Assembly: GCF_001652265.1 (NCBI RefSeq)
Contig: NZ_LWBS01000044.1
Span: forward strand, 1-64,000
Source: Rhizobium leguminosarum
Lineage (GTDB): Bacteria > Pseudomonadota > Alphaproteobacteria > Rhizobiales > Rhizobiaceae
Direction of reading: 5' to 3'
Length of the DNA stretch: 64,000 bases
Position numbers and translations under genes: made by a program. Below the pieces are notes generated by a model. It searched no databases. It was not told the origin of the DNA and worked only from the letters and a program-made list of their open reading frames with translations. Positions 31,938-51,080 of this stretch are shown here, piece by piece. Position 1 is the first letter of the stretch, and each line of letters starts with the position of its first letter.

Positions 31938-32252
31938 TCTTGTTCAGGCAGTACTACCGAAGAACCCACTGAAAGCACAATTTTCGCGAGAGCACCCACC
32001 TGAAAATGAAAGATAATACTATTTACGAAACCAACCCATGGCTTTGAGTTCTCAAATTAAAATTTGTTTCCAGTATTTCATCCTTAGTTTTTCATTAAAA
32101 AGGCGATGAAAAGACACAATTTTGCATTGAAAACTTAGTCGTGGATTGGCATAGATCCCCAGGAGGTTGTCGTCCGTTGAAGCTGCAAGAACAGTTCTAC
32201 TGAGGATTTCTCATTTTCATAGAATGCAACGCATCTTTTTGGAAAGTCTAAT
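31938..32252. promoter_or_regulatory. AT-rich upstream region of the RTX gene
   Basis: Clearly less GC than its surroundings from about 32000 to 32130 (many A/T runs), as in a promoter region or an old junction. GGAAAG lies eight bases before the ATG at 32253. No defined operator seen. Confidence 0.4.
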
Positions 32253-34324: not shown

Positions 34325-35557
34325 CTAGCCTTGGTCCAGGAAAAGCCGTGGCCGCGGGCGAAGGAAGCTCCGGCGACCATTTTTCCACCCGGCGCTCGCC
34401 GGCGCGATTGTCGCGACGGCATCGGCAGCCGAGGGAGCGTCCAACAGGACGATATCTGCCGCGCTGCCGATCGCAATGCCGTAAGCCTTTCTTCCCAGGA
34501 GGGTGGCAGCCTGTGTCGTGATCATGGCGAAGACGCCGTCGAGGCCATCGGGAGTGCCGATCTGGGCGATGTTGGCGTAAAGATTGGCCATGCGCATCAG
34601 GTTGACGTCGCCGAACGGCGTGAACGGATTCAGGACATTGTTGGTGGAGATGGTCGCGACGACGCCGAGCGCTGCCAACCGGTGAGCGGGTGTCACGCCG
34701 CGCGGGACGAGATGGGTCGAATCACGGCCGGTCAGGAATAGATCGGTAGCCGGTAGGACGGTCAACGCGATGCCTGCCTCGGCAAGACGGCGGCCGATCG
34801 GCTCCAGCTCTTCCGGCGGCAAAGCAGAGAGCTTGGTGACATGGCCAACCGAGACGCGCCCCTGGTAGCGGCGAGCGAGGGTCTCGGCTACGACGACAGG
34901 GAGATTGGAGCCTGCGGGGTCGAGGTCGAAATCGAGGTGGAAATCGACGGCAACGTCGTGGCGCATGGCAAGTGCGAAGATGCGGCGGATGTGTTCGGCC
35001 GGCTCCGGATCGGTGTAGGGGCAGCCGCCCACCAGATCGGCACCCATTTTCATCGCCTGTTCCAGCATCTCCTCAGTGCCGGGGTCGTTCGTCAGGCCCT
35101 CCTGGGCAAAGGCGCAGATTTCGATGTCGATGAGGCTGGTATAGTCAGCCTTCAATTTTCTGATCGCCTCAAAGGAGCGGAAGCCGGCGCGCGGGTCGAT
35201 CTCAACGAAGGTGCGCAGGTGGGTTGTGCCGTTGACGACCGCCTTTTCGATGACCGCGGCAGCGCGGGCATAGACATCTTCTTCGGTGAAGGCCGCCTTG
35301 GCCCTCGAGGTCTCGCTGACGGCCTCCGCGAGTGTCCCGGTGCAGAGATTGCAGCGGCTGATGATGCCGGCCTTGTCGAGGTGGATATGGGTCTCGATCA
35401 GGCCGGCGCAGGCGAATTTCCCCCCGGCATCATGGTGCGGCGCATCGCAGACGAAACCAGGTGCGATTGCCGCGACGCGGCCTGCCTCGAATGCGATGTC
35501 GGTCGGTTCGGTCAAGCCGGCCATACGGACATTCCGGACGACGAAATCGATCGCCAT
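34325..35557 (-). CDS. Amidohydrolase, cytosine deaminase-like
   Basis: A 410-aa metal-dependent TIM-barrel hydrolase. The metal-binding HxH is at His57 and His59 (AGLIETHIHLDKAGI). Further blocks are THLRTFVEIDPRAGF, DLVGGCPYTDPEPAEHI, VDFHLDFDLDP, VSVGHVTKL and VVATISTNNVLNPF. The pattern fits the CodA-like branch, which deaminates cytosine or hydrolyses related ring or exocyclic C-N bonds. The last about 20 residues (RPRPRLFLDQG) are unlike the family and may result from the nearby repeat. It is the last gene of a five-gene minus-strand unit, nine bases after the 8-oxoguanine-deaminase-like gene. Confidence 0.8.
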   Translation of the reverse strand: MAIDFVVRNVRMAGLTEPTDIAFEAGRVAAIAPGFVCDAPHHDAGGKFACAGLIETHIHLDKAGIISRCNLCTGTLAEAVSETSRAKAAFTEEDVYARAAAVIEKAVVNGTTHLRTFVEIDPRAGFRSFEAIRKLKADYTSLIDIEICAFAQEGLTNDPGTEEMLEQAMKMGADLVGGCPYTDPEPAEHIRRIFALAMRHDVAVDFHLDFDLDPAGSNLPVVVAETLARRYQGRVSVGHVTKLSALPPEELEPIGRRLAEAGIALTVLPATDLFLTGRDSTHLVPRGVTPAHRLAALGVVATISTNNVLNPFTPFGDVNLMRMANLYANIAQIGTPDGLDGVFAMITTQAATLLGRKAYGIAIGSAADIVLLDAPSAADAVATIAPASAGWKNGRRSFLRPRPRLFLDQG

Positions 35558-35566
35558 GGGGCCTCC

Positions 35567-36916
35567 TCAGACCGACAGAAGGAAATTGCGGGCGACGCGG
35601 TTGTGATCGGCGATCAGCGCCTCGATATCGACACCCTCCGGCATGCTGTCAGTGACGCGCCATTCGCCTGCGATCATGACGCGATCAGCCGTGGTGGCGC
35701 CGCAGAGCACCAGGGCTGCCAGCGGATCGCCGGCACCGGAGAAACGCAATTCGTCGAGCTTGTAGAAGGCCAGGTCCGCCTGGCGGCCCGGCGCGATGAT
35801 CCCGATGTCGTCGCGACCGAGCAGCCTTGCCGAGCCAGCGGTTCCCCAACGCAGCGCGTCGAGATGGGTAACGGCTTCGGCGCCATAGGTCAGGCGGTTC
35901 AGCATCAAGGCATGGCGCACGCTTTCCATCAGGTTGGAATTGTCATTGGAAGCCGAGCCGTCGACGCCAAGGCCGACTGGCACTCCTGCGGCTTCCAGCT
36001 CGCAGGTGCGGCACATGCCTGATGCAAGCACCATGTTGGATGTCGGGCAATGGCAGATGCCGACGCCGTGCCGGCCGAGTTCGACGATCTCGGCATCGTC
36101 GAAATGAATGCCGTGAGCGAGCCAAGTGCGGGCACTCAGCCAGTTGCAGCGGTCGAGATATTCCACCGGCGTGCAGGCGAATTTGCTGCGGCAGAATTCT
36201 GCTTCCGCCCTGGTCTCGACCAGATGGGTATGAAGACGGCAATCGTAGCGTTCCGCCAGTGCCGCCGTTTCGCGCATCAGCTCCAGCGTGACGTCGAACG
36301 GAGCACATGGGGCGAGCGCAACCTGCGTCATCGCCCCTTCGGAGCGGTCGTGATAATGCCGGAGCACACGCTCGCTGTCGGCGAGGATCACGTCATCGTC
36401 CTGCACGACATTGGCGGGCGAAATCACGCCTTGCTGGTCCTTGATATTGAGACTGCCCCGCGTCAGCGTGATGCGCATGCCAAGGCGAGCCGCCTCCTCG
36501 GCTTCGACATCCATCGCGTCTTCGAGACCGGCGGCATAGAGATAGTGGTGGTCGGAGGTGGTGGTGCAGCCGGAGAGGAGGAGCTCGGTCAGCGCGAGAC
36601 GGACGGCAAGACGGAAGGCTTCGGGCGTCATGTGTCTTGCCCAGATCGGATAGAGCGCGCGGATCCACGGCCAGAGCGACTTGTTGATCGCGGCCGGATG
36701 GGCGCGCGTCAGCGTCTGGAACATATGGTGATGGGTGTTGACGAGACCGGGAATGACGACATGCCGGCCGGCGTCGAAGTGTGCATCGACGGGGGTCGCA
36801 GGCTGCCGTCCAGCCGCGACCAGCTCGACGATGCGGCCATTCTCGATGACGATGCCTCCTTCGGCGCCTTCTGCCATGATGGCGAGCGGCGATTGGATCC
36901 AAAGTCGGCCCTTCAT
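35567..36916 (-). CDS. 8-oxoguanine deaminase-like amidohydrolase
   Basis: A 449-aa amidohydrolase. The first metal site is VIPGLVNTHHHMFQTLTRA (His62-64), the NTHHH-Q-LTR form of 8-oxoguanine deaminases and hydroxyatrazine ethylaminohydrolases. Others: THLVETRAEAEF, TWLAHGIHF, GICHCPTSNMVLASG and GLGVDGSASNDNSNL (metal Asp). Predicted to deaminate an oxidised or substituted purine or triazine ring. The start was set at 36916, with GGAG upstream (ATG of MKGRLW); the long upstream frame runs antisense through the next gene. It lies between two other amidohydrolase genes. Confidence 0.85.
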   Translation of the reverse strand: MKGRLWIQSPLAIMAEGAEGGIVIENGRIVELVAAGRQPATPVDAHFDAGRHVVIPGLVNTHHHMFQTLTRAHPAAINKSLWPWIRALYPIWARHMTPEAFRLAVRLALTELLLSGCTTTSDHHYLYAAGLEDAMDVEAEEAARLGMRITLTRGSLNIKDQQGVISPANVVQDDDVILADSERVLRHYHDRSEGAMTQVALAPCAPFDVTLELMRETAALAERYDCRLHTHLVETRAEAEFCRSKFACTPVEYLDRCNWLSARTWLAHGIHFDDAEIVELGRHGVGICHCPTSNMVLASGMCRTCELEAAGVPVGLGVDGSASNDNSNLMESVRHALMLNRLTYGAEAVTHLDALRWGTAGSARLLGRDDIGIIAPGRQADLAFYKLDELRFSGAGDPLAALVLCGATTADRVMIAGEWRVTDSMPEGVDIEALIADHNRVARNFLLSV

Positions 36917-36953
36917 CTGCGGTGCTCCCATGCGCCATACATTGATGGAAAAA

Positions 36954-38165
36954 TCAGACGACCAGCCGCCCCCCGCGGGCGATAATAGTGCCGCCGCGAA
37001 AGACGATGCGATCGAGGGGACGGGCAGCGACGGCTTCTGCCAGCGACGCGGCGGGCAGGATGACAAAATCGGCACGCGAGCCGGCCTGAAGCGGCTCGAC
37101 CGGACGGCCGAGGATTTCGGCCGGCGCTTGAGTGGCCAGGCGGAAAGCCGCCGCCAGATCCTCATCCGAACGGAAATCCTGGCGATCGCAGAGGATCCCG
37201 ACACGCTCCAGCATGTCGCCATTGCCGAACGGCGACCAGGCGTCGCGGATATTGTCGTTGGCGCAGAAGAGCCGGACGCCGGCTGCGGCAAGCCGCTTGA
37301 CCGGTGGCATCGGCACGGCTCCTGGCGCGCTGGTCATGATCGCCACGCCCGATCTGGCGAGTGCGGCGGCAGTGCGGCCGAATTCGGCATCGTCCAACTC
37401 GCCGAGGCAGAAAGCGTGGCTGACGACCACCTTACCTTCGAGGCCGAGTGCTGCCGTGCGATCGGCGATCTGGCGAAGTTCGAAGGCGCCGAGTGCACCG
37501 CCGTCATGCAGGTGAATATCGAGCCCAACGCCGTATTTGGCTGCGACTGAAAAGATCGCATCGAGATGGCCGGTCACGTCGTTGTCGATGCCGGCGGGAT
37601 CGAGGCCGCCGACGAGATCGGCGCCGGCGGCGATGGCCGCATCGAGCAGCCCGGCCGTGCCGGGATTGCGCAGCACGCCGGATTGCGGGAAGGCAACGGT
37701 CTGGATATCGACGAGGTGGCCATGGCTCTGCTTCAGCGAGAGCACGGCCTCGAGGCCTTTCAGGCCGACTTCGGTATCGATGTCGACATGGCTGCGAACG
37801 GAGAGAGTACCGTAGGCTGCAAGCTTCTCCAGCAGGGCGCCGCCGCGGGCTTCGACCGACAGGGCCACCGTGCGCCGCAGGGATTTTTCTGCCTCGATGC
37901 GCCTGGCGACCGTGTCGCCCGGAATATGCGGGATGAACGGCAGGCCGATCAACGTCTTGTCGAGATGAATATGGCCATCGACGAAGGGAAGGCAGAGCAG
38001 GCCGCCGGCAGCATCGAAACGCGGCACTGCGAGGTCGATGCCGGCGGCCGCATGTAGGCCGATCGCGGCGATCCGGTCATTGTTCAGGACGAGCGAGACG
38101 ATCTCGCCGGCTTCGGTCCTGGCGTTTTCGACTGCGAGGCTCGGCGTCATCAATTCTTCCATCAT
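36954..38165 (-). CDS. Amidohydrolase, cytosine deaminase-like (second copy)
   Basis: A 403-aa amidohydrolase of the same CodA-like branch as the gene at 34325, but clearly diverged. HxH is at His65/His67 (LPFVDGHIHLDKTL). Further: VRSHVDIDTEVGLKGLEAVL, DLVGGLDPAGIDNDV, GLDIHLHDGGALG, VVSHAFCLGELDD and LFCANDNIRDAWSPFG (metal Asp in NDN). The substrate is unknown; paralogues in one operon suggest successive steps or related compounds. It lies 37 bp upstream of the 8-oxoguanine-deaminase-like gene. Confidence 0.8.
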   Translation of the reverse strand: MMEELMTPSLAVENARTEAGEIVSLVLNNDRIAAIGLHAAAGIDLAVPRFDAAGGLLCLPFVDGHIHLDKTLIGLPFIPHIPGDTVARRIEAEKSLRRTVALSVEARGGALLEKLAAYGTLSVRSHVDIDTEVGLKGLEAVLSLKQSHGHLVDIQTVAFPQSGVLRNPGTAGLLDAAIAAGADLVGGLDPAGIDNDVTGHLDAIFSVAAKYGVGLDIHLHDGGALGAFELRQIADRTAALGLEGKVVVSHAFCLGELDDAEFGRTAAALARSGVAIMTSAPGAVPMPPVKRLAAAGVRLFCANDNIRDAWSPFGNGDMLERVGILCDRQDFRSDEDLAAAFRLATQAPAEILGRPVEPLQAGSRADFVILPAASLAEAVAARPLDRIVFRGGTIIARGGRLVV

Positions 38166-38168
38166 CCG

Positions 38169-39206
38169 CTATGCAATCAGCCCGACCCGGCGCGCCGCGA
38201 CGACGCGATAGAGTGGATCCTTCCACACCTCTTCCTCCTGCAGGGCGGAAAAAACCAAGCTGACATCGTGTTCGTCGTCGGAGGATACCGCGGCGCGTTT
38301 GATCTCCGCCCAGGCGGGCGCCTGTCGGCTGCGCATTTCTTCCAGCGCCTCGGCGGTGGGGAGTGCTGGAAAACCGATCTTCGGCACCAGCGAGGCGATC
38401 ACCTGCCAGAAGGCGCGGTAGAAAGGCTCGGCATTTTCGAGGTGCGGAGAGACGAGGCGCAGCCAGTGCATGCCGGTGACGGAATGGAGTGCGGTGAAAT
38501 CCATGGTTCCGGCAAAGAGGGCAAGCGAGGTCGCGGCCATACGGCGCGGCGTATCGGCATTGAAGGCAAGGCGGTCGATAACGGGGCGGAAGCCCGGAAG
38601 TGCGGCGACGGCGCGGATATTATGCCAGAGCAGATCGGTTTCCGGCTCATAATCGCGGATGCCTTCGATATTGCCGACATCGGCAAGCACGCTCCCCGGA
38701 TCATCCGTATCGGGCGCGGCACCGGTGGCGGATGGCAGCGGCAGATAGCAGGCCGCCCAATAGCCGAGCGCAGTGCCAACCTCCTGGTCATCCTTCTTGA
38801 GCACACCATAGGCAAGGCGCATCAGCGGATGCGTGGCGCTGCCTGCAAGGCCATTCACCATGGCGGGCAAATAGGTGCGGATGACCGCATCGATGCCGAG
38901 CCGGCGGGTTTCGGCGATGAAGAAGGCGCGGTAATCCGCCTCGCGCGTACGATCGCCAAGCGCCTCGGCCCAGTCCGCCCTGATAATCGGGGCAACCGGC
39001 GGCGGCATCAGCGGAAGTGCATGGCTCTCGCGATACTGCTCGTACCATTGTTCCAGCCGCTCCGCCGAGGCGCCGAGGCGATCGAGCGCGATCAGCACCA
39101 TCGGAACGTGGTTGGCCAACAGATAGGGAAATTCGACGCTATCCTCGCGTGCCCGCAAAAGGACGGCCTCCAATCCCGATAATTGAACGGCGGCAGCCTG
39201 TCTCAT
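38169..39206 (-). CDS. Questin oxidase-like (DUF4243) protein
   Basis: A 345-aa protein of the DUF4243 family, named after fungal questin oxidase, a Baeyer-Villiger-type ring-cleaving enzyme. Visible marks: FPYLLANHVPMVLIALDRLGASAERLEQWY near the N-terminus, LAYGVLKKDDQEVGTALGYWAACYL near 130, and FTALHSVTGMHWLRLVSP near 245; the His residues may be metal or cofactor ligands. Bacterial members are uncharacterised. Its start overlaps the flavoprotein stop by 4 bp, and the next gene starts three bases after its stop, so it is firmly in the operon. Confidence 0.75.
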   Translation of the reverse strand: MRQAAAVQLSGLEAVLLRAREDSVEFPYLLANHVPMVLIALDRLGASAERLEQWYEQYRESHALPLMPPPVAPIIRADWAEALGDRTREADYRAFFIAETRRLGIDAVIRTYLPAMVNGLAGSATHPLMRLAYGVLKKDDQEVGTALGYWAACYLPLPSATGAAPDTDDPGSVLADVGNIEGIRDYEPETDLLWHNIRAVAALPGFRPVIDRLAFNADTPRRMAATSLALFAGTMDFTALHSVTGMHWLRLVSPHLENAEPFYRAFWQVIASLVPKIGFPALPTAEALEEMRSRQAPAWAEIKRAAVSSDDEHDVSLVFSALQEEEVWKDPLYRVVAARRVGLIA

Positions 39207-40651
39207 GCCAAAACCTCCCTTGATGTCGTGACGTCCTCGTCTATGCCAGGATCGAAATGCGGTTCGTCATAGGCGGCCAATGCTTGAAGATACCGGTTGG
39301 AGTCCTCGATGAACAGCGCTTTCACCAAGGCGCTGACGATGCGCGGCACGCCGTATTTGAGACCGGTGACGCCATTGCTGACCGGGCCGAGGCTCGCCAG
39401 CGCGCCGGCATTGAACATATGGATGCGCGAGACCCAGCCGGCTTCGGCATGCCTGGGCGTGAGTTCGAAACCGGGCCCGAGATAGGGATAGTCGGCAAGC
39501 ATGGCGTTCTCCTCCCCCTGCGGCGGCTCGAAACGGTCTTTCCAAAACGCTGCGGCGTCGACGAGGCCGGCAAGCTCGGGCCTGAGCGCGAAATTAATCT
39601 CGTAACCGGTGCCGAGCAGGAGATGATCGGCATAGTGGCTACCATTTGCGGTCGTCAGCCTGATCCTGCCGCCGTCCATCGAGAGTTCGCGGACGCCACA
39701 GCCGAGCTGCATGGTGAAACCGGGGTGGCGGCAGGCCCGGTCATATTGCTCCTGGGTCGGCGGCACCTTGAAATTGAAGTAGAGATGGGCGAACCGCCAG
39801 CGCTCCAGATCCGACAAGTCGGCGAAATGGCCGAGAAAGCCGGGGAAATTTGTCCAGGCGAGAACCTCGGTACGCGGCATATCGGTGCTCCGCGCAAACA
39901 TCGTTACCTCTCGGGCGCCGGTTTCGAGCGCCGCCACCGCCCAGTCGAAGCTCGACGTGCCGCCGCCAAGGATCGCGACATCCCTGCCCTTGAGGAAATC
40001 GATCGCTATCGGCTCGTTGCTGTGCGTCCAGGCGGATTTCGGCAGCGCCTTGACCATAGCCGGTATGCGCGGGCCGCCGCAGCCGTCGATGCCGGTCGCC
40101 ATCACCAGTTGGCGGCAGGTGACCGTGCGGCTGGTGCCGTCAGCCTTTGACAGCGTGACAGCAAGTCCGCCTTCCGCCTGATTGATCGAGGAAAGCGTCG
40201 TGTCGTTTTCGACGTCGATGCCGACGGTCCTTCGAAACCAGACGAGATAGGCCATCCAGTCTTGGCGGCTGATCTTGTCGAGCGCTTCCCAGGCGTCAGC
40301 GCCATTAAGCGCCTCGTACCAGGAACGCAGCGTCAGGCTCGGGATGCCGAGATCCGGGCCTGAGAGATATTTCGGCGAACGCAATGTCTGCATGCGGGCG
40401 CAGGTGATCCAGGGGCCTTCGCGGCCTTCCTCGCTCTGATCGATCACATGAACGGACCTGATGCCGCGCCGCTTCAGGGCAAAGGCGATCGACAGGCCGG
40501 AGAGGCCGGCACCGCAGATCATGACGGAATGGAGATCGCGGTTGTCATCGCCAAGCGTCGGCCAGTCGGCGCAGAGGGCTTCTATGCGCGCCATTTCATC
40601 ATGGGCGCGGCGCTCCAGCTCTCTCAGGCGCTCATCGGGCGTAGTCGTCAT
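39203..40651 (-). CDS. Flavin-dependent monooxygenase-like FAD/NAD(P)-binding protein
   Basis: A 482-aa two-dinucleotide-binding flavoprotein. The FAD motif VMICGAGLSGLSIAFALKRRG is at 43-63, and the second nucleotide motif DVAILGGGTSSFDWAVAAL near 240. HADHLLLGTGYEINF-like (YADHLLLGTGYEIN) closes the FAD domain. It resembles N-hydroxylating and Baeyer-Villiger-type monooxygenases; the substrate is unknown. The start was chosen at MTTTPDERL (40651), since the longer frame has no protein-like N-terminus. First gene of the amidohydrolase operon, divergent from the ABC transporter. Confidence 0.8.
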   Translation of the reverse strand: MTTTPDERLRELERRAHDEMARIEALCADWPTLGDDNRDLHSVMICGAGLSGLSIAFALKRRGIRSVHVIDQSEEGREGPWITCARMQTLRSPKYLSGPDLGIPSLTLRSWYEALNGADAWEALDKISRQDWMAYLVWFRRTVGIDVENDTTLSSINQAEGGLAVTLSKADGTSRTVTCRQLVMATGIDGCGGPRIPAMVKALPKSAWTHSNEPIAIDFLKGRDVAILGGGTSSFDWAVAALETGAREVTMFARSTDMPRTEVLAWTNFPGFLGHFADLSDLERWRFAHLYFNFKVPPTQEQYDRACRHPGFTMQLGCGVRELSMDGGRIRLTTANGSHYADHLLLGTGYEINFALRPELAGLVDAAAFWKDRFEPPQGEENAMLADYPYLGPGFELTPRHAEAGWVSRIHMFNAGALASLGPVSNGVTGLKYGVPRIVSALVKALFIEDSNRYLQALAAYDEPHFDPGIDEDVTTSREVLA

Positions 40652-40870
40652 GAATGTGCAGCTCATGCGCGTTGGACAGGACAGTATAGACGCGCAGGGA
40701 ATGATCGACTCCCTGCTATTTTTTATGCAACGCGCACAAAATATGGACATTTATGCGCGAATATGTTCTAATTTGTGATTTTTAATGTTTGTGCTTTTTT
40801 GTCAAGTGCGCTTGAGTGCGATTTTGTTTGATGTATAGTGCCTCAAGCCAATCAAAAAAGGGGAGCAAAA
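40652..40870. promoter_or_regulatory. Divergent promoter region of the amidohydrolase and ABC operons
   Basis: 219 bp, strongly AT-rich from 40720 to 40820. 40759-40772 reads GAATATGTTCTAAT, matching 12 of 14 positions of GAATTTGTTCGAAT at 46138 before the deoR-type gene. Three TTGTG/TTGTC repeats follow (40773-40806). AAAGGGGAGC is the ribosome-binding site of the binding-protein gene. Confidence 0.5.
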
Positions 40871-42157
40871 ATGAAATCGCTCAACAGTCTCACACGAAAA
40901 TTGGCGATCGCGGGCCTCGTCTCGGTCGCATTTGTGGGCTCCGCCATCGGCGCCGACAAGAAATATGAGGGCATCACGCTCACGCTTGCCTCGCAGAACG
41001 ACCAGTTCGCCGCTGTTCTGGCTGCCATCGCCCCTAAGTTCACCGAGGAGACGGGCGCCACGGTCAAGGTCGACATTCTCGACTACGGCTCGCTGCTGAC
41101 CAAGACCACGACCGATTTCGTCGGCGGCACCGGCGGCTACGACCTGGTGACGATGGATATCGTCTGGGCGGGCCAATATGCAGAAAACAAATACACCGTC
41201 GATCTCACCGAGTGGATGAAGCGCGACGCCGCCGAACTGAAGCTCGACGACATCTATCCGACGCTTCTCAACGCGCTTGGCCACTGGGGAGACAAGCAGG
41301 TCGCCTTTCCCTTTGCCGGTTATGCCAACGTGCTTGCCTATCGCAAGGATCTCTTCGACGCCGCCGGCCTGAAGGCGCCGACGACGATGGAGGAAATGGT
41401 CGAGGCCGCCTACAAACTGACCGACCCCAGCAAGAAGATCTACGGCTTCGTCGCCAACGGCCAGAAAGGCCCGGCGGTCGCCCAGGACTGGATGCAGTAC
41501 AATACCGAGATGGGCGGTTCGATCCTCGATTCCGACGGCAAGCCGGCGCTGAATTCCGAAGCCAATATCAAGAGCCTGATCGTCTATAAGGACCTCTTCA
41601 TGAAAGCGGCACCTCCTGGCGCCGTTAATTATGACTGGGGCGGACGCGAGGAAAGCTTCCGCCAGGGCATTGCCGCGACCATGCAGACATGGTCGGTCGG
41701 GGCGCCTGGCTATTATGATCCGTCGATTTCCAAGATCGTCGACAAGGTGGCGATCACGACGGCGCCCCGCGGCGCCGGTCTGCCGAAGGTCTATGGGATC
41801 GGCGGCTGGGGCATGGCGATCAACGCCGGCATCAAGGATACGCAGAAGGAAGCCGCCTGGGCCTTCATCAAGTGGCTGGTCAGTCCGCCGGTGCACAAGG
41901 AATTCAACATGATGGGCGCCGGCAGCTTCCTGCGCAAGAGCGAGATGACCGATCCCGATCTGCTGAAGAAGTTCCCCTTCCTGCCTGTCATCGCCGAAAC
42001 CTTCGAGCATGGTGACGGCGAATATCGTCCGCGCATCCCGCAATATCCAGAGATTCAGGACCTGCTCGGCACCGCCGTCAACGACGTGCTCGTCGGCAAT
42101 GCCGATCCCAAGAAGGCGCTCGACGCCGCTCAGGAAGCCGCTGCAAAGCTCTTCTGA
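40871..42157 (+). CDS. ABC transporter substrate-binding protein (sugar type, family 1)
   Basis: A 428-aa periplasmic binding protein. Signal peptide KLAIAGLVSVAFVGSAIGA is cut near residue 28. The mature part follows the family 1 (maltose-type) pattern: ITLTLASQNDQFAAVLAAIA, FTEETGATVKVDILDYGSLL, YDLVTMDIVWAGQYAE, AFPFAGYANVLAYRKDLFDA, GIGGWGMAINAGI and WAFIKWLVSP. The ATG at 40871 has AAGGGGAGC upstream. It is transcribed with two permease genes and captures a sugar, polyol or similar solute, not determinable by sequence. Confidence 0.9.
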   Translation: MKSLNSLTRKLAIAGLVSVAFVGSAIGADKKYEGITLTLASQNDQFAAVLAAIAPKFTEETGATVKVDILDYGSLLTKTTTDFVGGTGGYDLVTMDIVWAGQYAENKYTVDLTEWMKRDAAELKLDDIYPTLLNALGHWGDKQVAFPFAGYANVLAYRKDLFDAAGLKAPTTMEEMVEAAYKLTDPSKKIYGFVANGQKGPAVAQDWMQYNTEMGGSILDSDGKPALNSEANIKSLIVYKDLFMKAAPPGAVNYDWGGREESFRQGIAATMQTWSVGAPGYYDPSISKIVDKVAITTAPRGAGLPKVYGIGGWGMAINAGIKDTQKEAAWAFIKWLVSPPVHKEFNMMGAGSFLRKSEMTDPDLLKKFPFLPVIAETFEHGDGEYRPRIPQYPEIQDLLGTAVNDVLVGNADPKKALDAAQEAAAKLF

Positions 42158-42311
42158 GAACAAAACGGTTTCCTCCCCGGGGGCCGCGGCCTATGTCGCG
42201 GCTCCACCGTTTCCAGACCATTGATCCGATGCGCCTCAGGCTTCATGATCGGGTGAGCCCCGGGCTCGATCCCGGTAGCGCGCATCGAACCAGGAACCTG
42301 ATGGACATGAC

Positions 42312-43253
42312 GTGACCCTATCCCTCACTTCCGCGCTGAAGCCCTCCCCGGCCTTGAGCGTTTCCTATCTGGAGCGCAGGCGGTTGTTCTTCATCCTGAT
42401 GACGCTGCCGGCCTTCATCTACGTGCTCGTCATCGGCGTCTGGCCGCTGGCGCAGGGCATCTGGTTCAGCCTCTACGAATATAATCTGCTCAAGCCGGCG
42501 CGGACGCATTTCGTCGGCCTCGGCAACTATATCGACCTTCTCTCCGACCCGGTGACACGCGGGGCCTTCGTCAATACCGTCATCTTCACGGTCGGCGCTG
42601 TGACTGTCGAACTGCTGCTCGGCTTTGCCATTGCGCTGGCGCTCTGGCGCGATGACCGCTTCAACCGGATCTGCCTGGCGCTGATCCTGATACCGGTGAC
42701 GATCACGCCGCTGGTGGTCGGACTGATCTTCCGGGCGCTGCTGCTCGCCGATTACGGGCTTGTCGGCTATTATCTCGCCGAGTTCGGGCTTTCCGATCCG
42801 CGTGGGCTTTTTGCCAATCCGAGTTCGGCGCTGGCGACCCTTATCTTCGTCGACATATGGGAATGGACGCCGCTGGTGGCGCTGATCCTGCTTGCTGGCC
42901 TGAAAGCGCTGCCGGGCGATATTCTCGAGGCATCGGAAGTGGATGGGGCAACGGCGCTGCAGCGGCTGAGGATCATCGTCATTCCGCTGATGTTGCCTTC
43001 AATCCTGCTGGCGCTGACGCTGCGCACCATCGATGCCTTCCGCATCTTCGACAGCGTTTACGTGACGACGGGCGGCGGGCCGGGCAACGCGACCAACACG
43101 CTGATGCTGCATGCGGTGAAGCAGGGTCTGGAATTCTTCAATATCGGCCGCGCCTCGGCGATCTCCAACCTGACACTGATCTGCATCGCCGTAATCGCGG
43201 CAGGCTTCATCCTGTTGATCCGCAAGGCGGACAGAAAGGCGAACGGGCGATGA
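42312..43253 (+). CDS. ABC transporter permease (MalF type)
   Basis: A 313-aa inner-membrane permease with six helices, e.g. LFFILMTLPAFIYVLVIGVWPLAQG and VNTVIFTVGAVTVELLLGFAIALAL. The EAA loop, which docks the ATPase, is LPGDILEASEVDGATALQRLRIIVIPLM, followed by the typical DSVYVTTGGGPGNATNTL. It starts at GTG 42312 after AGGAAC. Its stop overlaps the second permease start (ATGA). Confidence 0.9.
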   Translation: MTLSLTSALKPSPALSVSYLERRRLFFILMTLPAFIYVLVIGVWPLAQGIWFSLYEYNLLKPARTHFVGLGNYIDLLSDPVTRGAFVNTVIFTVGAVTVELLLGFAIALALWRDDRFNRICLALILIPVTITPLVVGLIFRALLLADYGLVGYYLAEFGLSDPRGLFANPSSALATLIFVDIWEWTPLVALILLAGLKALPGDILEASEVDGATALQRLRIIVIPLMLPSILLALTLRTIDAFRIFDSVYVTTGGGPGNATNTLMLHAVKQGLEFFNIGRASAISNLTLICIAVIAAGFILLIRKADRKANGR

Positions 43254-44068
43254 GCACACGCACCCTCAGCCGCATCGGCGAGCGCGCCTTCATCCTTGTC
43301 ATGCTCGCCTTTTTCCTGCTGCCCTTCCTGTGGCTGGCCTCGACTGCCTACAAGCCGTCGCGCGACATCTTCTCGATCCCGCCAAAACTGACTTTTACAC
43401 CGACCCTCGAGCAGTTCGCGACGGTCTTCCGCCTGTTCGACGTCTGGAGCCTCGTATCGTCAAGCCTGCTGATCGCCAGCGGTTCGGTGATCCTGTCGCT
43501 GCTGCTCGGCGTGCCGGCAGGCTATGCGCTTGCACGCTCGACCAGCCGCTATGCCATTGCGGTTGCCTATTTCTTCATGGCAATCCGCATGGTGCCGGCA
43601 GTGGCGGCGCTGATCCCCTTCTATCTGATGATGCGCGATATCGGGCTGCTCGGCAGTTGGGTCGCCGTCGTGCTCATCAACGCGATGCTGAATTCGGCCT
43701 TCGTCACCTGGATGATGTTTTCCTATTTCCGCAGCCTGCCGAAGGAGCTGGAAGAGGCGGCACTAACGGATGGATGTACGCTGTTCGGCTCCTTCTGGCG
43801 CGTGGCGCTGCCGGCGGTGCGCTCAGGCGTCGTCGCCTCCACGCTGTTCTGCCTGATGTTTTCCTGGAACGACTTCCTCTATCCGATGTTTCTCACCCGG
43901 CTCGATTCCAAGCCGATCTCGGTGGCGCTGCTTTCAGCCTATGGCACGAAGGACATCACCTGGGGCACACTCGGCGCGCTGGCGCATTTTTCGACGATTC
44001 CGATCGTACTGATCGTGCTCTTCCTCAACCGTTATTTCGTGCAGGGCCTGACAAAAGGCATTCACTAA
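43250..44068 (+). CDS. ABC transporter permease (MalG type)
   Basis: A 272-aa permease with six helices. EAA loop: LPKELEEAALTDGCTLFGSFWRVALPAVRSG. Also typical are LLPFLWLASTAYKPSRDIF, NSAFVTWMMFSYFRSLP and the C-terminal LNRYFVQGLTKG. It heterodimerises with the preceding permease. The ATG at 43250 overlaps the previous stop. Its ATPase gene lies just beyond, on the opposite strand. Confidence 0.9.
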   Translation: MSTRTLSRIGERAFILVMLAFFLLPFLWLASTAYKPSRDIFSIPPKLTFTPTLEQFATVFRLFDVWSLVSSSLLIASGSVILSLLLGVPAGYALARSTSRYAIAVAYFFMAIRMVPAVAALIPFYLMMRDIGLLGSWVAVVLINAMLNSAFVTWMMFSYFRSLPKELEEAALTDGCTLFGSFWRVALPAVRSGVVASTLFCLMFSWNDFLYPMFLTRLDSKPISVALLSAYGTKDITWGTLGALAHFSTIPIVLIVLFLNRYFVQGLTKGIH

Positions 44069-44081
44069 AGAGACGATGCGC

Positions 44082-45230
<1,149 letters not shown>

Positions 45231-45276
45231 GCTCTTTCCTTGCTGAACGGGAGGCCTGTTGCAGGTCCTGGACGGG

Positions 45277-46062
45277 TCAGGTCGTGTAGACGCCGCCGGT
45301 GACGTTGACGCCCTGCCCGGTCATGAAGCGGGCCGAATTCGAGCAGAGGAAAACGACGACATCGGCCACGTCTTCAGGCGTTTCCAGCCGGCCGAGCGGC
45401 GTCTGGGCGATATAATCCGCAACGACGCGTTCGGGCGTGACGCCGCGCAGGCTCGCCTCCCAGGCGATCTCGCGCTCCTGCATGCCGGTCTTGACGAAAC
45501 CGGGGCAGACGGCGTTGACGCGAATGCCTGAAGCCGCGAGCTCGCGGGCAAGCGCCTGCGTCCAGCCGAGCACTGCAAACTTGCTGGCGGAATAATGAGC
45601 CAGCAACGGTGCGCCGATCTTTGCGGCAATCGAGGCGGTGTTGACAATGACGCCGGTACCGGTGCTCGTAAAGCGCCGGGCGGCAATCTGGTTGGTCAGG
45701 AAGATGCCGCGAATGTTGACGTCGAAATTATAGTCCCACTCCTCGTCGGTCAGTTCCAGCGCATGCTGCATCGTGGAGACGCCGGCATTGGCGCAGAGGA
45801 TCTCGTAACCGCCCGTCTTCTCCACGACCTCGGAAAAGGTCGCCTCGACGGAGGCGCGCTTGCGAACGTCGATCGCATAGGCAGTGGCGCCGTTGCCGAT
45901 CTCGGCCGCCGTCTGTTCGGCGGCCGCCAGGTTGATGTCGCAGATCGCCACCTGGATCGACTGGCGGGAGAGCGCGGTCGCGATCGCGCGCCCTATCCCC
46001 GTCGCCCCGCCGGTTACGATCGCACGCTTGCCGGATAGTTCTGGAAAGCTCGGAGACTGCAT
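45277..46062 (-). CDS. SDR-family dehydrogenase (polyol/sugar type)
   Basis: A 261-aa classical short-chain dehydrogenase. Cofactor motif TGGATGIGRAIA near 17-28, NAG in ILCANAGVSTMQHA, catalytic Ser in NTASIAAKIGA, and YSASK with catalytic Tyr and Lys; the Asp in VAICDINLA predicts NAD preference. The C-terminus (FLCSNSARFMTGQGVNVTGGVY) fits sorbitol/threitol-like dehydrogenases. The start at 46062 (ATG) has GAGGGCG; the earlier ATG at 46074 lacks it. It would oxidise a hydroxyl of the imported solute. Confidence 0.85.
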   Translation of the reverse strand: MQSPSFPELSGKRAIVTGGATGIGRAIATALSRQSIQVAICDINLAAAEQTAAEIGNGATAYAIDVRKRASVEATFSEVVEKTGGYEILCANAGVSTMQHALELTDEEWDYNFDVNIRGIFLTNQIAARRFTSTGTGVIVNTASIAAKIGAPLLAHYSASKFAVLGWTQALARELAASGIRVNAVCPGFVKTGMQEREIAWEASLRGVTPERVVADYIAQTPLGRLETPEDVADVVVFLCSNSARFMTGQGVNVTGGVYTT

Positions 46063-46226
46063 GTTCGCCCTCATTGACTGGAAACATCACCGATCATATA
46101 ACAACAAAATCATACACAACAAGAAAAATTTATGTTTGAATTTGTTCGAATCTTTCGATACATAGGGAGCAACAATCAGACAATCGTAGCCACGAGTTGC
46201 GACGGCGGGAGGATGAGAACGGTATC
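46063..46226. promoter_or_regulatory. Divergent promoter region, SDR and DeoR-type genes
   Basis: 164 bp, AT-rich between 46090 and 46160. It contains GAATTTGTTCGAAT (46138-46151) followed by CTTTCGATA; TTCG/TTTCG repeats are common in DeoR-family operators. The 14-mer is shared (12 of 14) with the region before the ABC operon. GGGAGG at 46207-46212 may be the ribosome-binding site of the regulator. Confidence 0.5.
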
Positions 46227-47078
46227 ATGGACGCGGAACAGCAGATGGTCGCCGCAGCGGAAAAACCGAAGGTTCTGGCCCAGGTGCGGCATGCGCGCAT
46301 CCTGGAGACACTGGCCCGCAAAGGCGCGGTCTCCGTCAGCGATGTCGCCTCCCAGCTTGCCGTTTCCGAAATGACCGTCCGCCGCGATCTGATCGAACTC
46401 GAAAAGGACGGCAGGCTGGTGCGCACGCACGGCGGGGCGGTGCGCAGCGGCAAGGCCTTCGAGCCGATCGCCAGCGAAACGGTCGATCGCGAGGAGCCGA
46501 CCTTCGAATCCCGGCTGACGCGCAATGCCGCCTCGAAGCGGACGATCGCGATGGCGGCGGCAGGCGTCGCTGCCGGCGCGCGAACCCTGGCGCTCGACGT
46601 TGGTACCACCACCTATCTGCTGTCCGGCCTGCTGCTCAACCAGCAGCATACGAAGATCTTCACCAACAGCGTACGCAATGCCATGCAGCTCGGCACCGGC
46701 TTCGGCGAAGTCTATCTGCCCGGCGGGCGCATGCGCGGCGAGGAAATGGCGATCAGCAGCCAATCGGCCGTTTCGCAATTCGAGGAACTCTGGTTCGACA
46801 TCGCCTTCGTTGGCGTGTCCGGGATTACGGCGCAGGGAATTTACGACTATTCCTTCGAGGACACCGACATGAAGCGGGTCTATCTGCGCCGCGCGACGCA
46901 GAAGGTGGTGCTTTGCGATTCCACCAAGTTCAAGCGGATGTCGCTGGTGCATATCGCGCCGCTGCAGCAATTCGACATGCTGATCACCGATGCGATGCCG
47001 CCGGCCGATCTTGCCGATGCGCTCGCCGCCGCTGGGGTCGTTGTGCGCATCGCGCCCGAGGAGCAGCCGCTGCTTTGA
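46227..47078 (+). CDS. DeoR/GlpR-type transcriptional regulator
   Basis: A 283-aa regulator. The N-terminal winged helix RHARILETLARKGAVSVSDV then ASQLAVSEMTVRRDLIELEK (21-60) ends in the DeoR mark GRLVRTHGGAV. The C-terminal sugar-phosphate sensor domain has ALDVGTTTYLLSGLL, FTNSVRNAM, GGRMRGEEMAISSQSA and VVLCDSTKFKR. Such proteins are usually repressors relieved by a phosphorylated sugar, which suits the FGGY kinase two genes downstream. It is divergent from the SDR gene and probably controls both directions. The start at 46227 is preferred over an upstream TTG. Confidence 0.88.
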   Translation: MDAEQQMVAAAEKPKVLAQVRHARILETLARKGAVSVSDVASQLAVSEMTVRRDLIELEKDGRLVRTHGGAVRSGKAFEPIASETVDREEPTFESRLTRNAASKRTIAMAAAGVAAGARTLALDVGTTTYLLSGLLLNQQHTKIFTNSVRNAMQLGTGFGEVYLPGGRMRGEEMAISSQSAVSQFEELWFDIAFVGVSGITAQGIYDYSFEDTDMKRVYLRRATQKVVLCDSTKFKRMSLVHIAPLQQFDMLITDAMPPADLADALAAAGVVVRIAPEEQPLL

Positions 47079-47148
47079 TTTGCCCTTTCCCGCATCCGTC
47101 CCCCGGCGGATGACTGTTCCACTCGATTTCGCTTCAGGGAGTTCCCGC

Positions 47149-47949
47149 ATGGTCTTCGACTTTTTTGGCGTCAAGAAGAAGGCGGTCATCGCCATGGCGC
47201 ATATCGGAGCCCTGCCCGGCTCGCCCGCCTATGACGCCGCCGCCGGTGTGAACAAGCTCGTCGACGACGTGCTTTCCGATATCGAGAAGCTGCAGGCGGG
47301 CGGCGTCGACGCCATCATGCTCGGCAACGAGAACGACCGGCCTTACGTCTTCCAGGCGCCGCCGGAGGGGCTAGCGGCGATGACAGCGATCGTCGAGCGG
47401 GTGAAACCGCAACTGACAGTGCCGTTCGGCGTCAACTATCTCTGGGATCCCTCGGCAAGCGTTGCGATCGGCGCAGTGACGGGCGCGAGCTTCGTTCGCG
47501 AGATCTTCACCGGCGTCTTCGCCTCCGACATGGGCATCTGGCAGCCGGATTGCGCTAAGGCGGCACGGCTGCGACATAGCCTCGGCCGCGACGAGATGAA
47601 GATGCTCTTCAACATCAACGCGGAATTTGCCCATTCGCTGGACCAGCGCCCGATCGAACTCAGGGCGAAGAGTGCCGTGTTCTCGTCGCTCGCCGATGCC
47701 ATCCTGGTTTCGGGACCACTGACCGGACAGGAGGTCGATCAATCGGACCTCAGGCGTGTCTGCGAGACAGTCAGGGATGTCCCTGTCTTTGCCAATACCG
47801 GCGTCAACAAGGATAATGTGCGCGACATATTGAGCGTTGCCAGCGGCGTCATCATCGGTACGCATTTCAAGGTGGACGGTAATACCTGGAACCCGGTCGA
47901 CGGCGACCGGGTAAAGCGCTTCATGGAGATCGTCGAGGCGCTGCGCTGA
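47149..47949 (+). CDS. BtpA/SgcQ family TIM-barrel protein
   Basis: A 266-aa protein. Family blocks: KAVIAMAHIGALPGSPAY, AGGVDAIMLGNENDRPY, PFGVNYLWDPSASVAIG, GASFVREIFTGVFASDMG and FANTGVNKDNVRDILSVASG, then VIIGTHFKVDGNTWNPVD. BtpA was named for photosystem I assembly, but most members, like E. coli SgcQ, sit in sugar operons and are predicted TIM-barrel sugar-phosphate or nucleoside-related enzymes. CAGGGAG precedes the ATG at 47149. It is followed 15 bp later by the kinase. Confidence 0.85.
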   Translation: MVFDFFGVKKKAVIAMAHIGALPGSPAYDAAAGVNKLVDDVLSDIEKLQAGGVDAIMLGNENDRPYVFQAPPEGLAAMTAIVERVKPQLTVPFGVNYLWDPSASVAIGAVTGASFVREIFTGVFASDMGIWQPDCAKAARLRHSLGRDEMKMLFNINAEFAHSLDQRPIELRAKSAVFSSLADAILVSGPLTGQEVDQSDLRRVCETVRDVPVFANTGVNKDNVRDILSVASGVIIGTHFKVDGNTWNPVDGDRVKRFMEIVEALR

Positions 47950-47964
47950 ACGAGAGGAGCCGCC

Positions 47965-49470
47965 ATGTCCATCACGCTCGGCCTCGATATCGGCACCACC
48001 TCCACCATCGGCATCTTGATCGAGCTGCCGAACCGCGTGCTCGGGCTCACCTCACGGCCGTCGACGCTTCATTCGCCGCAGCACGGCTGGGCCGAGGAAG
48101 ACCCGGCGGAATGGTGGGTGAATGTCTGTGAGATCACCAGGGAACTGATTGCAACGACCGGGATCGAGGCCGGGCAAATCTCGGCCGTCGGCGTAACCGG
48201 CATGCTGCCGGCCGTCGTGTTGCTCGATGACGCCGGCGACGTGCTGAGGCCGAGCATCCAGCAGAGCGACGGGCGTTGCGGTGAGGAGGTCGAGGAACTT
48301 AAGGCCGAGTGGGATGAGTCGGATTTTCTCGCGAAGGCAGGAAACGGCATCAACCAGCAGCTGGTGACGGCGAAGCTGCGCTGGATCGCCCGGCATGAGC
48401 CCGCGGTCTTCGAGCGCATTGCCACAGTCATGGGGTCTTATGATTTCATCAACTGGAAACTGACCGGCGAAAAGGCGATCGAACAGAACTGGGCGCTGGA
48501 AGCGGGCTTCGTCGATATCAACACCGGCAAGCTCGATGACGAACTGATCGGGCTTGCCAGAGTTCGCCGGCACGCCATTCCGAGGAAGGCCGCTTCGCAT
48601 GAGGTGCTTGGCCATCTGACCGATGAGGCGGCCAAGGCGACGGGGCTCGCACCCGGAACGCCTGTTATCGGCGGGGCGGCCGACATGATCGCCTCGGCCT
48701 TCGGCGCGGGGATCAACAAGGCGGGCGACGTGCTGCTGAAATTCGGGGGTGCCGTCGATATCCTGACGGCAACGGATGTCGTGCGGCCCGATCGTCGCAT
48801 GTTTCTCGATTATCATCTGGTTCCGGGGCTGTATATGCCGAACGGCTGCATGTCGACCGGCGGCTCGGCGCTCAACTGGTTCATCAGCACCTTTGCCGGA
48901 CGCGAGGAGATCGCGGCAAAGGCGGAGGGAATTTCCGTGCACCACTATCTCGATCGGCTGGCGGCGGCATGCGCGCCCGGCGCGGACGGGCTGACGATCC
49001 TGCCTTACTTCCTCGGCGAGAAGACGCCGATCCATGATGCCGGTGCGCGCGGCCTCATCAAGGGCTTGACGCTGTCGCATCATATTGGCCATCTCTGGCG
49101 GGCGATGCTCGAAGCCTATGCCTATGCGCTGCGCCATCATATCGACGTGCTGAACGACATCGGCCATCCGACGACGCGTTTCATCGTTTCCGACGGGGGA
49201 TCGCAGAGCCGTATCTGGATGCAGATCGTTTCGGACGTGCTGCAGCAGCCACTGCAGGGTCTCACCGGCCATCCCGGCTCCTGCCTCGGTGTCGCCTGGG
49301 CCGCGGCGATCGGTGCGGGGTTGACCGAGGATTGGTCCGGTGTGACCGCCTTTGTCGGCCAGGGTGACAGGATCCTCCCCAATCCCGACAATGCAGCGGT
49401 TTATGATCGGGGTTATCAGACCTATCGTGCGCTTTACAGGCCACAGACCGAGTGGGATTTGATAGCGTGA
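47965..49470 (+). CDS. FGGY-family carbohydrate kinase
   Basis: A 501-aa two-domain kinase of the xylulokinase/gluconokinase group. The phosphate 1 motif is LGLDIGTTSTIGILIE at the N-terminus; VGVTGMLPAVVLLDDAGDVL follows; GGAADMIASAFGAGI lies near 232; the C-terminal domain has FIVSDGGSQSRIWMQIVSDV near 405 and GSCLGVAWAAAIGAG. It phosphorylates a sugar or polyol, perhaps making the DeoR inducer. It overlaps the next gene by GTGA. Confidence 0.88.
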   Translation: MSITLGLDIGTTSTIGILIELPNRVLGLTSRPSTLHSPQHGWAEEDPAEWWVNVCEITRELIATTGIEAGQISAVGVTGMLPAVVLLDDAGDVLRPSIQQSDGRCGEEVEELKAEWDESDFLAKAGNGINQQLVTAKLRWIARHEPAVFERIATVMGSYDFINWKLTGEKAIEQNWALEAGFVDINTGKLDDELIGLARVRRHAIPRKAASHEVLGHLTDEAAKATGLAPGTPVIGGAADMIASAFGAGINKAGDVLLKFGGAVDILTATDVVRPDRRMFLDYHLVPGLYMPNGCMSTGGSALNWFISTFAGREEIAAKAEGISVHHYLDRLAAACAPGADGLTILPYFLGEKTPIHDAGARGLIKGLTLSHHIGHLWRAMLEAYAYALRHHIDVLNDIGHPTTRFIVSDGGSQSRIWMQIVSDVLQQPLQGLTGHPGSCLGVAWAAAIGAGLTEDWSGVTAFVGQGDRILPNPDNAAVYDRGYQTYRALYRPQTEWDLIA

Positions 49471-51080
49471 CGACACCGGCGGAACGGGATTCCACTAGAG
49501 AAGCAGTCAGGCGCGGCGGCATGGTAACAAGCCCGCATGCGCTGGCGAGCGAGGCGGGTGCCGCGATCCTGCGGGCCGGCGGCAATGCGCTTGAGGCTGC
49601 GATTGCGATCGGCAGCACGATTGCCGTCGTCTACCCGCATTTCTGCGGTCTTGGCGGCGATTCCGTCTGGATCGTTGCCGATCGCAGCGGGAGGAAAACA
49701 TGTTTTCTCGGCATCGGCCAGGCGGCGCGCAAATTGCCGGATTTCGACGGCAGCATTCCGCTGCGCGGACCGCTTTCGGCGCTGACCTCGGCCTGCGCCG
49801 TCGATAGCTGGCGGCACGCCCATGACTATTCCGCGCGGCACTGGGGCGGAAAGATCGATTTCCCCGTCTTGCTTGCCGATGCGATCCGTCATGCCGAAGA
49901 GGGATTTCCTGTTACGCGCTCGCAGAGCTTCTGGCTTGCCTTCCGGGAGGCGGAGGCAACCGGCTGGCCGGGTTTTGCCGCACTTTTCATGCCGGATGGC
50001 GCGGCGCTGAAAACCGGCAGCCTGTTCCGGCAGGAGAATTTGGCGCTATCGCTGTCGCTGATTGCCCGTGATGGGCCGCGTTCATTCTACGAAGGCGAAC
50101 TCGGCACGAGGATTGCGGCGGGCCTGCAGGCCGCGGGCTCTCCGCTGACCAGCGACGATCTCAAGGCAACCCGAACGCGCGAAGTGCCACCCGTCAGTCT
50201 CTCGTATCGCGGTTTCGAGCTGCTTGCGCCTCCGCCGCCGACACAGGGTCTGTCGACGCTGGCGATCATGGGCATTCTCGCCCATTTCGATCTTGCCAGC
50301 CAAACGGCCGGCAGCGCCGATCATCTCCATCTCTGCGTCGAAGCAGTCAAACGCGCCTTCCTCGACCGCGGCGGCATTGCCGATCCCGATGTCGTGCCGC
50401 AGCCGGTGGAGGAATGGCTGAGCACGCAGCGTCTTGCGCAGGCGGCAGCCTCCATTGATCCAGCACGAGCGCTCGAATGGCCGGCGCCCTTTCGCAGCGG
50501 CGACACCGTGTTCTTTGCCGCAACCGACGCAGAGGGCGGCAGCGTCAGCGTCTTGCAGAGCACGTATTTCGACTGGGGCAGCGGCGTAGTGGTCGGCGAT
50601 ACGGGTATTCTCTGGCAGAACCGCGGGGCGGCCTTTTCGTCCGATCCCAAGCATGTCAATGCCATCGCACCCGGCAAACGGCCTTTCTATACTCTGAATC
50701 CCGGCCTCGGCCTGCGCAACGGCAAGCCCGCCCTGCTCTACGGCACGCAAGGCGCCGACGGCCAGCCGCAGACGCTGGCAATGCTGCTGACCCGGCTGAT
50801 CGACTTCGACGAGGAACCAGCAGCAGCGCTGGCCGGTCCACGCTTTCTTCTCGGCAAGACCTTTTCCGACAGCCGTGACAGCCTCAAGCTGGAAAGCGAT
50901 GCCGGCGAAGTGGTGTTTGCCGAACTGGCCGCACGAGGCCACGCACTGTCACCGATCGAGGCGCAGAGCCCGCTTGCAGGGCAGGCAGGTGTGATCGTTA
51001 TCGACGAGGACGGCATGGCGACCGGCGCACATGATCCACGTGGCGACGGACTGGCGATCGGGATCTCTTCCGGGGCATGA
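49467..51080 (+). CDS. Gamma-glutamyltransferase-like (Ntn) hydrolase
   Basis: A 537-aa protein of the gamma-glutamyltranspeptidase family. N-terminal family marks: GGMVTSPHALASEAGAAILR, GGNALEAAIAIG and VVYPHFCGLGGDS. Autocleavage and the catalytic Thr fall at Thr347 (RSGDTVFFAATDAEGGSVSV). There is no signal peptide, so it is probably cytoplasmic, unlike classical periplasmic enzymes. It would cleave or transfer gamma-glutamyl or a related amide; relatives act as cephalosporin acylases. The GTG start overlaps the kinase stop (GTGA), so it is the last gene of the regulator-BtpA-kinase unit. Confidence 0.85.
   Translation: MTTPAERDSTREAVRRGGMVTSPHALASEAGAAILRAGGNALEAAIAIGSTIAVVYPHFCGLGGDSVWIVADRSGRKTCFLGIGQAARKLPDFDGSIPLRGPLSALTSACAVDSWRHAHDYSARHWGGKIDFPVLLADAIRHAEEGFPVTRSQSFWLAFREAEATGWPGFAALFMPDGAALKTGSLFRQENLALSLSLIARDGPRSFYEGELGTRIAAGLQAAGSPLTSDDLKATRTREVPPVSLSYRGFELLAPPPPTQGLSTLAIMGILAHFDLASQTAGSADHLHLCVEAVKRAFLDRGGIADPDVVPQPVEEWLSTQRLAQAAASIDPARALEWPAPFRSGDTVFFAATDAEGGSVSVLQSTYFDWGSGVVVGDTGILWQNRGAAFSSDPKHVNAIAPGKRPFYTLNPGLGLRNGKPALLYGTQGADGQPQTLAMLLTRLIDFDEEPAAALAGPRFLLGKTFSDSRDSLKLESDAGEVVFAELAARGHALSPIEAQSPLAGQAGVIVIDEDGMATGAHDPRGDGLAIGISSGA

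Follow-up and report, generated by a model that had tools for sequence, protein, structure and literature searches.

The window analysed here, a stretch of 64,000 nucleotides from Rhizobium leguminosarum (assembly GCF_001652265.1, contig NZ_LWBS01000044.1, positions 1 to 64,000), holds at 34325-51080 a cluster of fourteen genes that we lean towards reading as a single system for catabolising a nitrogen-rich heterocycle, of the purine or pyrimidine type, that is linked to a sugar. The cluster joins a questin-oxidase-family protein (Q), a flavin monooxygenase-like protein (FMO) and three amidohydrolases (A1, A2 and an 8-oxoguanine deaminase, OG) to an ATP-binding cassette (ABC) importer with a sugar-type substrate-binding protein (SBP) and to a set of sugar genes: a short-chain dehydrogenase (SDR), a DeoR-family regulator, a BtpA/SgcQ-family barrel and an FGGY-family kinase. 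The original prediction, made from the letters of the window, had proposed one such system, with sugar-type import joined to ring oxidation, deamination and amide release, and gene content and co-occurrence support this part of it; the kinase-dependent induction that it also proposed remains a prediction, as does the substrate. Independent neighbours, as the principal reading, were rejected on profile and neighbourhood counts. The genes lie on contig C44 of an 8.18-Mb genome (G000) as follows.

34325..35557, minus: A1, amidohydrolase resembling CodA; keeps the metal histidines, has Asn306 at the CodA Asp313 position
35567..36931, minus: OG, 8-oxoguanine deaminase (NF006055 equivalog)
36954..38165, minus: A2, amidohydrolase of the PRK05985 type, closest among solved chains to 6nbo and N-isopropylammelide hydrolase (AtzC); retains Asp304 and histidines
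38169..39206, minus: Q, questin-oxidase-family protein; BTG13/PaD-type non-heme-iron dioxygenase fold
39203..40651, minus: FMO, FAD/NAD(P)-dependent monooxygenase-like protein
40778..40839, no strand: divergent promoter-like pair, -35 boxes inside a 22-bp element at 40799-40820
40871..42157, plus: SBP, sugar-type (SBP_bac_1) binding protein
42312..43253, plus: PermA, ABC permease
43250..44068, plus: PermB, ABC permease (scan made on a longer open reading frame, ORF)
44082..45230, minus: UgpC-type ABC ATPase, named from the annotated orthologue in R. leguminosarum OyaliB
45277..46062, minus: SDR dehydrogenase
46227..47078, plus: DeoR-family regulator (scan begun at 46197)
47149..47949, plus: BtpA/SgcQ-family TIM barrel
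47965..49470, plus: FGGY-family sugar kinase, under the xylulokinase cut-off
49452..51080, plus: hydrolase of the N-terminal nucleophile (Ntn) type resembling gamma-glutamyltransferase (GGT-like); best match both 5hft chains jointly; true start possibly later

All genes named in the original prediction are present on the strands it gave. The tight coupling it saw on the minus strand from 40651 to 34325 is borne out by a 4-bp overlap of FMO and Q and by remaining gaps of 3, 22 and 9 bp in the operon FMO-Q-A2-OG-A1, which diverges from SBP and the two permeases. The divergent ABC operon stands for these three genes and fails for the ATPase, which lies on the other strand from its permeases and, with SDR, diverges from DeoR-BtpA-FGGY-GGT. 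The predicted overlap of kinase and GGT-like genes depends on the start chosen: a start at 49452 overlaps FGGY, but the OyaliB orthologues have shorter annotations, with no overlap. Plasmid p4 of OyaliB carries all fourteen genes in this order.

Recurrence of the cluster

Neighbourhoods were compared around three anchors, Q, SBP and BtpA, with per-gene identity thresholds that we set ourselves; the loci are unequal in flank length, and absences are to be taken as lower bounds. Q is found in 24 of 394 genomes of the family, and with named records and plasmids added, 45 Q-anchored groups were compared. Records of the R. leguminosarum complex among them are near-duplicates rather than independent cases (the window Q is 97-98% identical to R. 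laguerreae/leguminosarum proteins). The Q-anchored table omits named loci that repeat a genome (L057, L059-L063, L065) and the actinobacterial loci L075-L080, and G113 and G122, with Q identities of 45-47%, fall outside the compared loci. Parts of the cluster recur in the 45 groups and in seven families of the order.

SBP is present in 36 of the Q-anchored groups, accompanied by FMO (32), FGGY (31), A2 (30), DeoR (30), SDR (29), A1 (26) and BtpA (26). SBP itself, taken as the anchor, occurs at 60% identity or more in 18 of 297 genomes of the order, spread over seven families (L189, with an SBP of 35%, is left out), and beside it stand Q in 17, A2 in 15, FMO in 13, FGGY in 12, BtpA in 10, a hydrolase resembling the biuret hydrolase BiuH in 10 and allophanate hydrolase in 8. 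BtpA, sought in what the genome labels indicate are the same 297 genomes, reaches at least 64% identity in 41, and these include all 18 with SBP; every sampled owner of the importer thus has BtpA, on-site or elsewhere. The p-value calculated for this overlap takes no account of kinship, and its family-collapsed counterpart depends on an assumed family number. The question whether the two halves co-occur is therefore answered in the affirmative by the kinase, which accompanies SBP in most loci under either anchor, and by BtpA.

The sugar module is nevertheless a general, reusable one, because it also occurs without this importer. At 20 BtpA-anchored loci, drawn from 70 genomes with a match and mostly the strongest, the SDR-DeoR-BtpA-FGGY set is well represented (FGGY in 18, DeoR in 17, SDR in 16), SBP is found in only 2 and Q in 1. 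Such BtpA/SgcQ and FGGY modules of the Hyphomicrobiales share the set with the window and carry a HAD-type gene in 12 of 20 cases; the window lacks one and, unlike them, has its module linked with a different importer and with genes for ring cleavage. In Kaistia (L067-L070) BtpA was not found within the fetched flanks, where other genomes of the same family (f16) have it, and one of these loci (L068) has ROK and CutC genes upstream.

Nine of the 45 Q-anchored groups lack SBP: a 4-kb contig, and G324, G094, G390, G229, G289, G393, G283 and G330. The latter eight combine Q with a divergent FMO (35-36%), a creatininase-family gene (inside the clusters L039-L046), another amidohydrolase and other ABC genes, with no SDR, DeoR, BtpA or FGGY at the thresholds used; the two that were scanned, L039 and L043, have an SBP_bac_8-type binding protein. 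A creatininase-family gene also adjoins the cluster in Martelella (L031:13092-19900 and others), L031 having in addition a LysR gene, an S15-type peptidase and second ABC genes. In R. beringeri TP37 (L150) the annotation lacks several cluster genes, and the alignment shows A1 and A2 either out of frame or with gaps; decay or an incomplete gene table are both possible.

Enzymes and intergenic regions

Q scores 101.3 bits against the family profile PF14027 (cut-off 27), so the questin oxidase-like family of the original prediction holds, and a fold search gives the protein a non-heme-iron dioxygenase fold of the BTG13/PaD type, at 17-20% identity in structural alignments. A sequence search against solved structures gave no match, and the BTG13 link comes from the fold search alone. 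Four histidines (33, 126, 241 and 313) are invariant across 42 sequences and are candidates for the four metal-binding histidines of the questin-oxidase/BTG13 dioxygenases. BTG13 also has a carboxylated lysine as a ligand; among the same 42 sequences no Lys is invariant. The fold suggests that Q is probably an iron-dependent ring-cleaving dioxygenase. BTG13 and PaD are fungal; Q is bacterial and, unlike them, lies within a catabolic operon with an importer and amidohydrolases. We found no paper joining questin oxidase with amidohydrolase and catabolism, nor with Baeyer-Villiger chemistry, and the questin oxidase papers that we did find bear fungal titles.

OG passes the 8-oxoguanine deaminase equivalog NF006055 (622 bits, cut-off 532, a longer ORF being scored), as the original prediction would have it. 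A relative at 67% identity in G567, a genome of another family, also passes (577 bits) and sits in a cluster with Q, FMO, SBP, BtpA, FGGY and a BiuH-like pair, and the curated profile identifies both as 8-oxoguanine deaminases. OG differs from that family in its context of FMO, Q and sugar genes. Further matches are 7ww2 (355 bits), named both 8-oxoguanine deaminase and hydroxydechloroatrazine ethylaminohydrolase, and 2paj (269 bits), which we take to be isoxanthopterin deaminase. The two proteins called CodA-like in the original prediction part ways. A2 keeps its metal residues, Asp304 and histidines, and matches N-isopropylammelide isopropylaminohydrolase chains (6nbo, 326 bits; AtzC-type, 205 bits). 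A1 keeps the metal histidines and places Asn306 opposite CodA Asp313, an Asn found in 13 of 14 sequences, the fourteenth (L150) being off frame. Because Asn replaces Asp313, A1 may depart from the standard deaminases as a non-deaminase or repurposed amidohydrolase.

The GGT-like protein remains a hydrolase resembling GGT, as predicted, and loses the gamma-glutamyltransferase identity. It scores 300.9 bits against the equivalog TIGR00066, below the cut-off of 357.85; its top single-chain match is 2nlz (238 bits), and 5hft leads only when its chains A and B are summed (201 + 162 = 363 bits over residues 19-537). Classical gamma-glutamyl chemistry was rejected on the missed cut-off and the better match to the 5hft chains. 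Thr352, kept in 8 of 8 aligned sequences, is aligned with residue 1 of the 5hft small chain, the processing site. We take 5hft, listed as a gamma-glutamyltranspeptidase, to be HpxW, an oxamate amidohydrolase.

FGGY likewise stays below a curated threshold (xylulokinase equivalog TIGR01312, 308.9 bits, cut-off 380.25). The BtpA model is a TIM barrel with a predicted local distance difference test score of 86.5, and its fold matches are phosphate-binding barrels, ribulose-phosphate epimerase among them, and also CutC. Among the 20 of 218 papers listed for BtpA or SgcQ none was found on the role of these barrels, several of them concerning an unrelated namesake, and no paper on BtpA with FGGY was found.

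Between FMO and SBP, the 22-bp element spans the -35 boxes of the two divergent promoter-like sites. It occurs once in the window genome with up to 3 mismatches allowed, and its 20-bp core is exact at 27 distinct places among 190 fetched loci (36 loci listed, repeats removed). The number of promoter-like sites in this region is at chance level, 2 found against 1.6 expected. An operator shared between the FMO-SBP and SDR-DeoR intergenic regions was not demonstrated, the best shared 16-mer being matched by at most 5% of shuffles in only 3 of 17 loci.

Ureide hydrolases in relatives

In strain ACO-34A the importer operon continues into a BiuH-like hydrolase, a paralogue of it and an allophanate hydrolase. 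BiuH-like genes occur in 10 of the 45 Q-anchored groups and allophanate hydrolase homologues in 9. The ACO-34A enzyme (L151), the only one of these homologues scanned in NCBIfam, is an allophanate hydrolase by curated profile, with 666.9 bits against the equivalog TIGR02713 (cut-off 511.05). The BiuH-like protein keeps Asp36, Lys142, Lys145 and Cys175 in 4 of 4 compared. It was rejected as BiuH proper, scoring 282.2 bits against NF050097 in L030, below the BiuH cut-off of 370, and having Phe (3 of 4) or Tyr (1 of 4) at the position of Gln215. According to the available part of PMC5806882, Gln215 of BiuH binds the far amide of biuret. Since this residue is replaced, the BiuH-like protein probably acts on a substituted biuret relative, for instance an N-acyl ureide. 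The adjoining isochorismatase-fold paralogue (L030:17089-17721, L151:14671-15312, L182:15242-15838, L177:3416-4033) lacks Cys175, Lys142 and Lys145 in all four loci and Asp36 in three of them, and is a possible pseudoenzyme partner.

These clusters share the allophanate hydrolase and the BiuH-like hydrolase with the TrtA-BiuH-AtzF pathway for triuret and biuret, as the available part of PMC7948467 presents it. They differ in the missed cut-off and absent Gln215, in the Cys-less partner, and in their upstream oxygenases and importer. The window genome has BiuH/TrtA-like genes in a separate stretch (C77, L152): two such hydrolases, one keeping Asp173 like BiuH and the other with Glu like TrtA, beside a BMP-type binding protein and a C-N hydrolase. 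This may be a triuret/biuret-type operon that the host has in its own right. On C97 lies a gene resembling allophanate hydrolase (47%).

Proposed pathway and its alternatives

From gene content and fold we infer the following substrate, bond cleaved and order of steps. A CUT1-type importer would take up a sugar conjugate, and ring amino groups would be removed by OG and probably also by A2. FMO would hydroxylate the ring to a hydroquinone-like form, in which Q would cleave a carbon-carbon bond, C4-C5 of a purine or C5-C6 of a pyrimidine, leaving an acyl-ureide such as N-oxalyl-allophanate or N-acyl biuret. Dioxygenolytic C5-C6 cleavage of a 5,6-oxygenated pyrimidine would give a carboxy-ureido-oxalyl chain, from which amide-bond hydrolysis would release allophanate and oxalate, or, by an alternative cut, oxamate; C4-C5 cleavage of a urate-type purine would give a triuret/oxalyl product. 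Either cleavage would account for an allophanate hydrolase and an oxamate-type hydrolase. The urea part would be finished in relatives by the BiuH-like and allophanate hydrolases, the oxamate part by the HpxW-like GGT homologue, and the sugar part would be processed by SDR, the FGGY kinase and BtpA as a phosphosugar barrel, with DeoR as sensor.

It is tempting to speculate, and we do so tentatively, that nucleosides or glycosides of the purine or pyrimidine type are degraded here by an undescribed oxidative route that avoids allantoin. A bacterial BTG13-type dioxygenase would yield an oxalyl-ureide and then allophanate with oxamate or oxalate, and allophanate- and biuret-type ureides would thereby have a natural source in an enzyme. 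The likeness to the Klebsiella hpx purine pathway, with its oxamate amidohydrolase HpxW (PMC5270733, in the part available), is the match of the GGT-like protein to 5hft; in contrast to that pathway, the cluster shows no recognisable urate oxidase, 5-hydroxyisourate (HIU) hydrolase or allantoinase. Among the papers listed, no title or abstract opening describes the cluster.

Several points weigh against a single system for such a conjugate. Enzyme roles are assigned here from sequence and fold, none from experiment, and the ligand is a prediction. Among the 18 SBP-anchored genomes, A1 is in 2, OG in 2 and GGT in 1; OG is in 12 of the 45 Q-anchored groups (the window, ten Rhizobium-titled records and one Rhizobiales bacterium, with G567 outside the table) and GGT in 8, flanks often being too short to reach it. 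The f50/f18 clusters G585, G511, G539 and G571 carry Q and SBP with no FMO at threshold. The cluster genes include no recognisable glycosidase or nucleosidase, and A1 lacks the CodA Asp313. The window cluster itself is without the BiuH-like pair and allophanate hydrolase, whose homologues lie elsewhere in the genome, and the departures of that pair from BiuH count here too.

The absence of SBP from 18 of the 20 BtpA-anchored loci also tells against one system and, with the absence of Q from 19, suits two independent modules at one site, a sugar/polyol operon (SDR, DeoR, BtpA, FGGY, ABC) and an aromatic-ring operon (FMO, Q, amidohydrolases). Eight Q genomes without sugar genes and the undemonstrated shared operator point the same way. 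This arrangement seems unlikely to us, given that Q accompanies SBP in 17 of 18 genomes, that all SBP genomes have BtpA, and that FMO and SBP have divergent promoter-like sites whose -35 boxes adjoin within an element that recurs at 27 distinct sites.

The aglycone may also be other than a purine or pyrimidine. Were it of the flavin or pteridine kind (riboflavin, lumazine or a pterin glycoside), Q would cut the bond joining the fused rings, and the ribityl part would go to the sugar genes; SDR, FGGY and a ribulose-phosphate-type barrel would suit a pentitol, OG matches 2paj, and purines, flavins and pterins share the pyrimidine half. We consider this improbable, the best OG match being to 8-oxoguanine deaminase and no genes that break the dimethylbenzene ring being recognised among the cluster genes, although no search aimed at them was made. 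Less probable still is an s-triazine, with OG (AtzB-like), A2 (AtzC-like), the BiuH-like protein and allophanate hydrolase forming a variant cyanuric acid pathway, as the matches of A2 to 6nbo and AtzC-type chains, the double name of 7ww2 and the true allophanate hydrolase of ACO-34A might suggest. Breakdown of an s-triazine requires no ring dioxygenase, and cyanuric acid hydrolase (PF09663), found in 10 of 16 genomes searched, is never at the cluster and is absent from the window genome; a local cyanuric acid route was rejected on this ground.

If a purine- or pyrimidine-type conjugate is indeed the substrate, a dioxygenase family with solved structures from fungi would also serve nitrogen-ring catabolism in plant-associated and other alphaproteobacteria, and BtpA/SgcQ barrels would gain a defined pathway for assay. 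Such a route would also provide an enzymatic upstream source for ureides: the natural sources of triuret are described as unknown in the available part of PMC7948467, and that of PMC12625717 reports the upstream genes of triuret and biuret breakdown as absent from the genomes studied.

Beside the cluster, at 31110-33980 of the window, an HlyD-type adaptor adjoins an RTX/cadherin-repeat protein.

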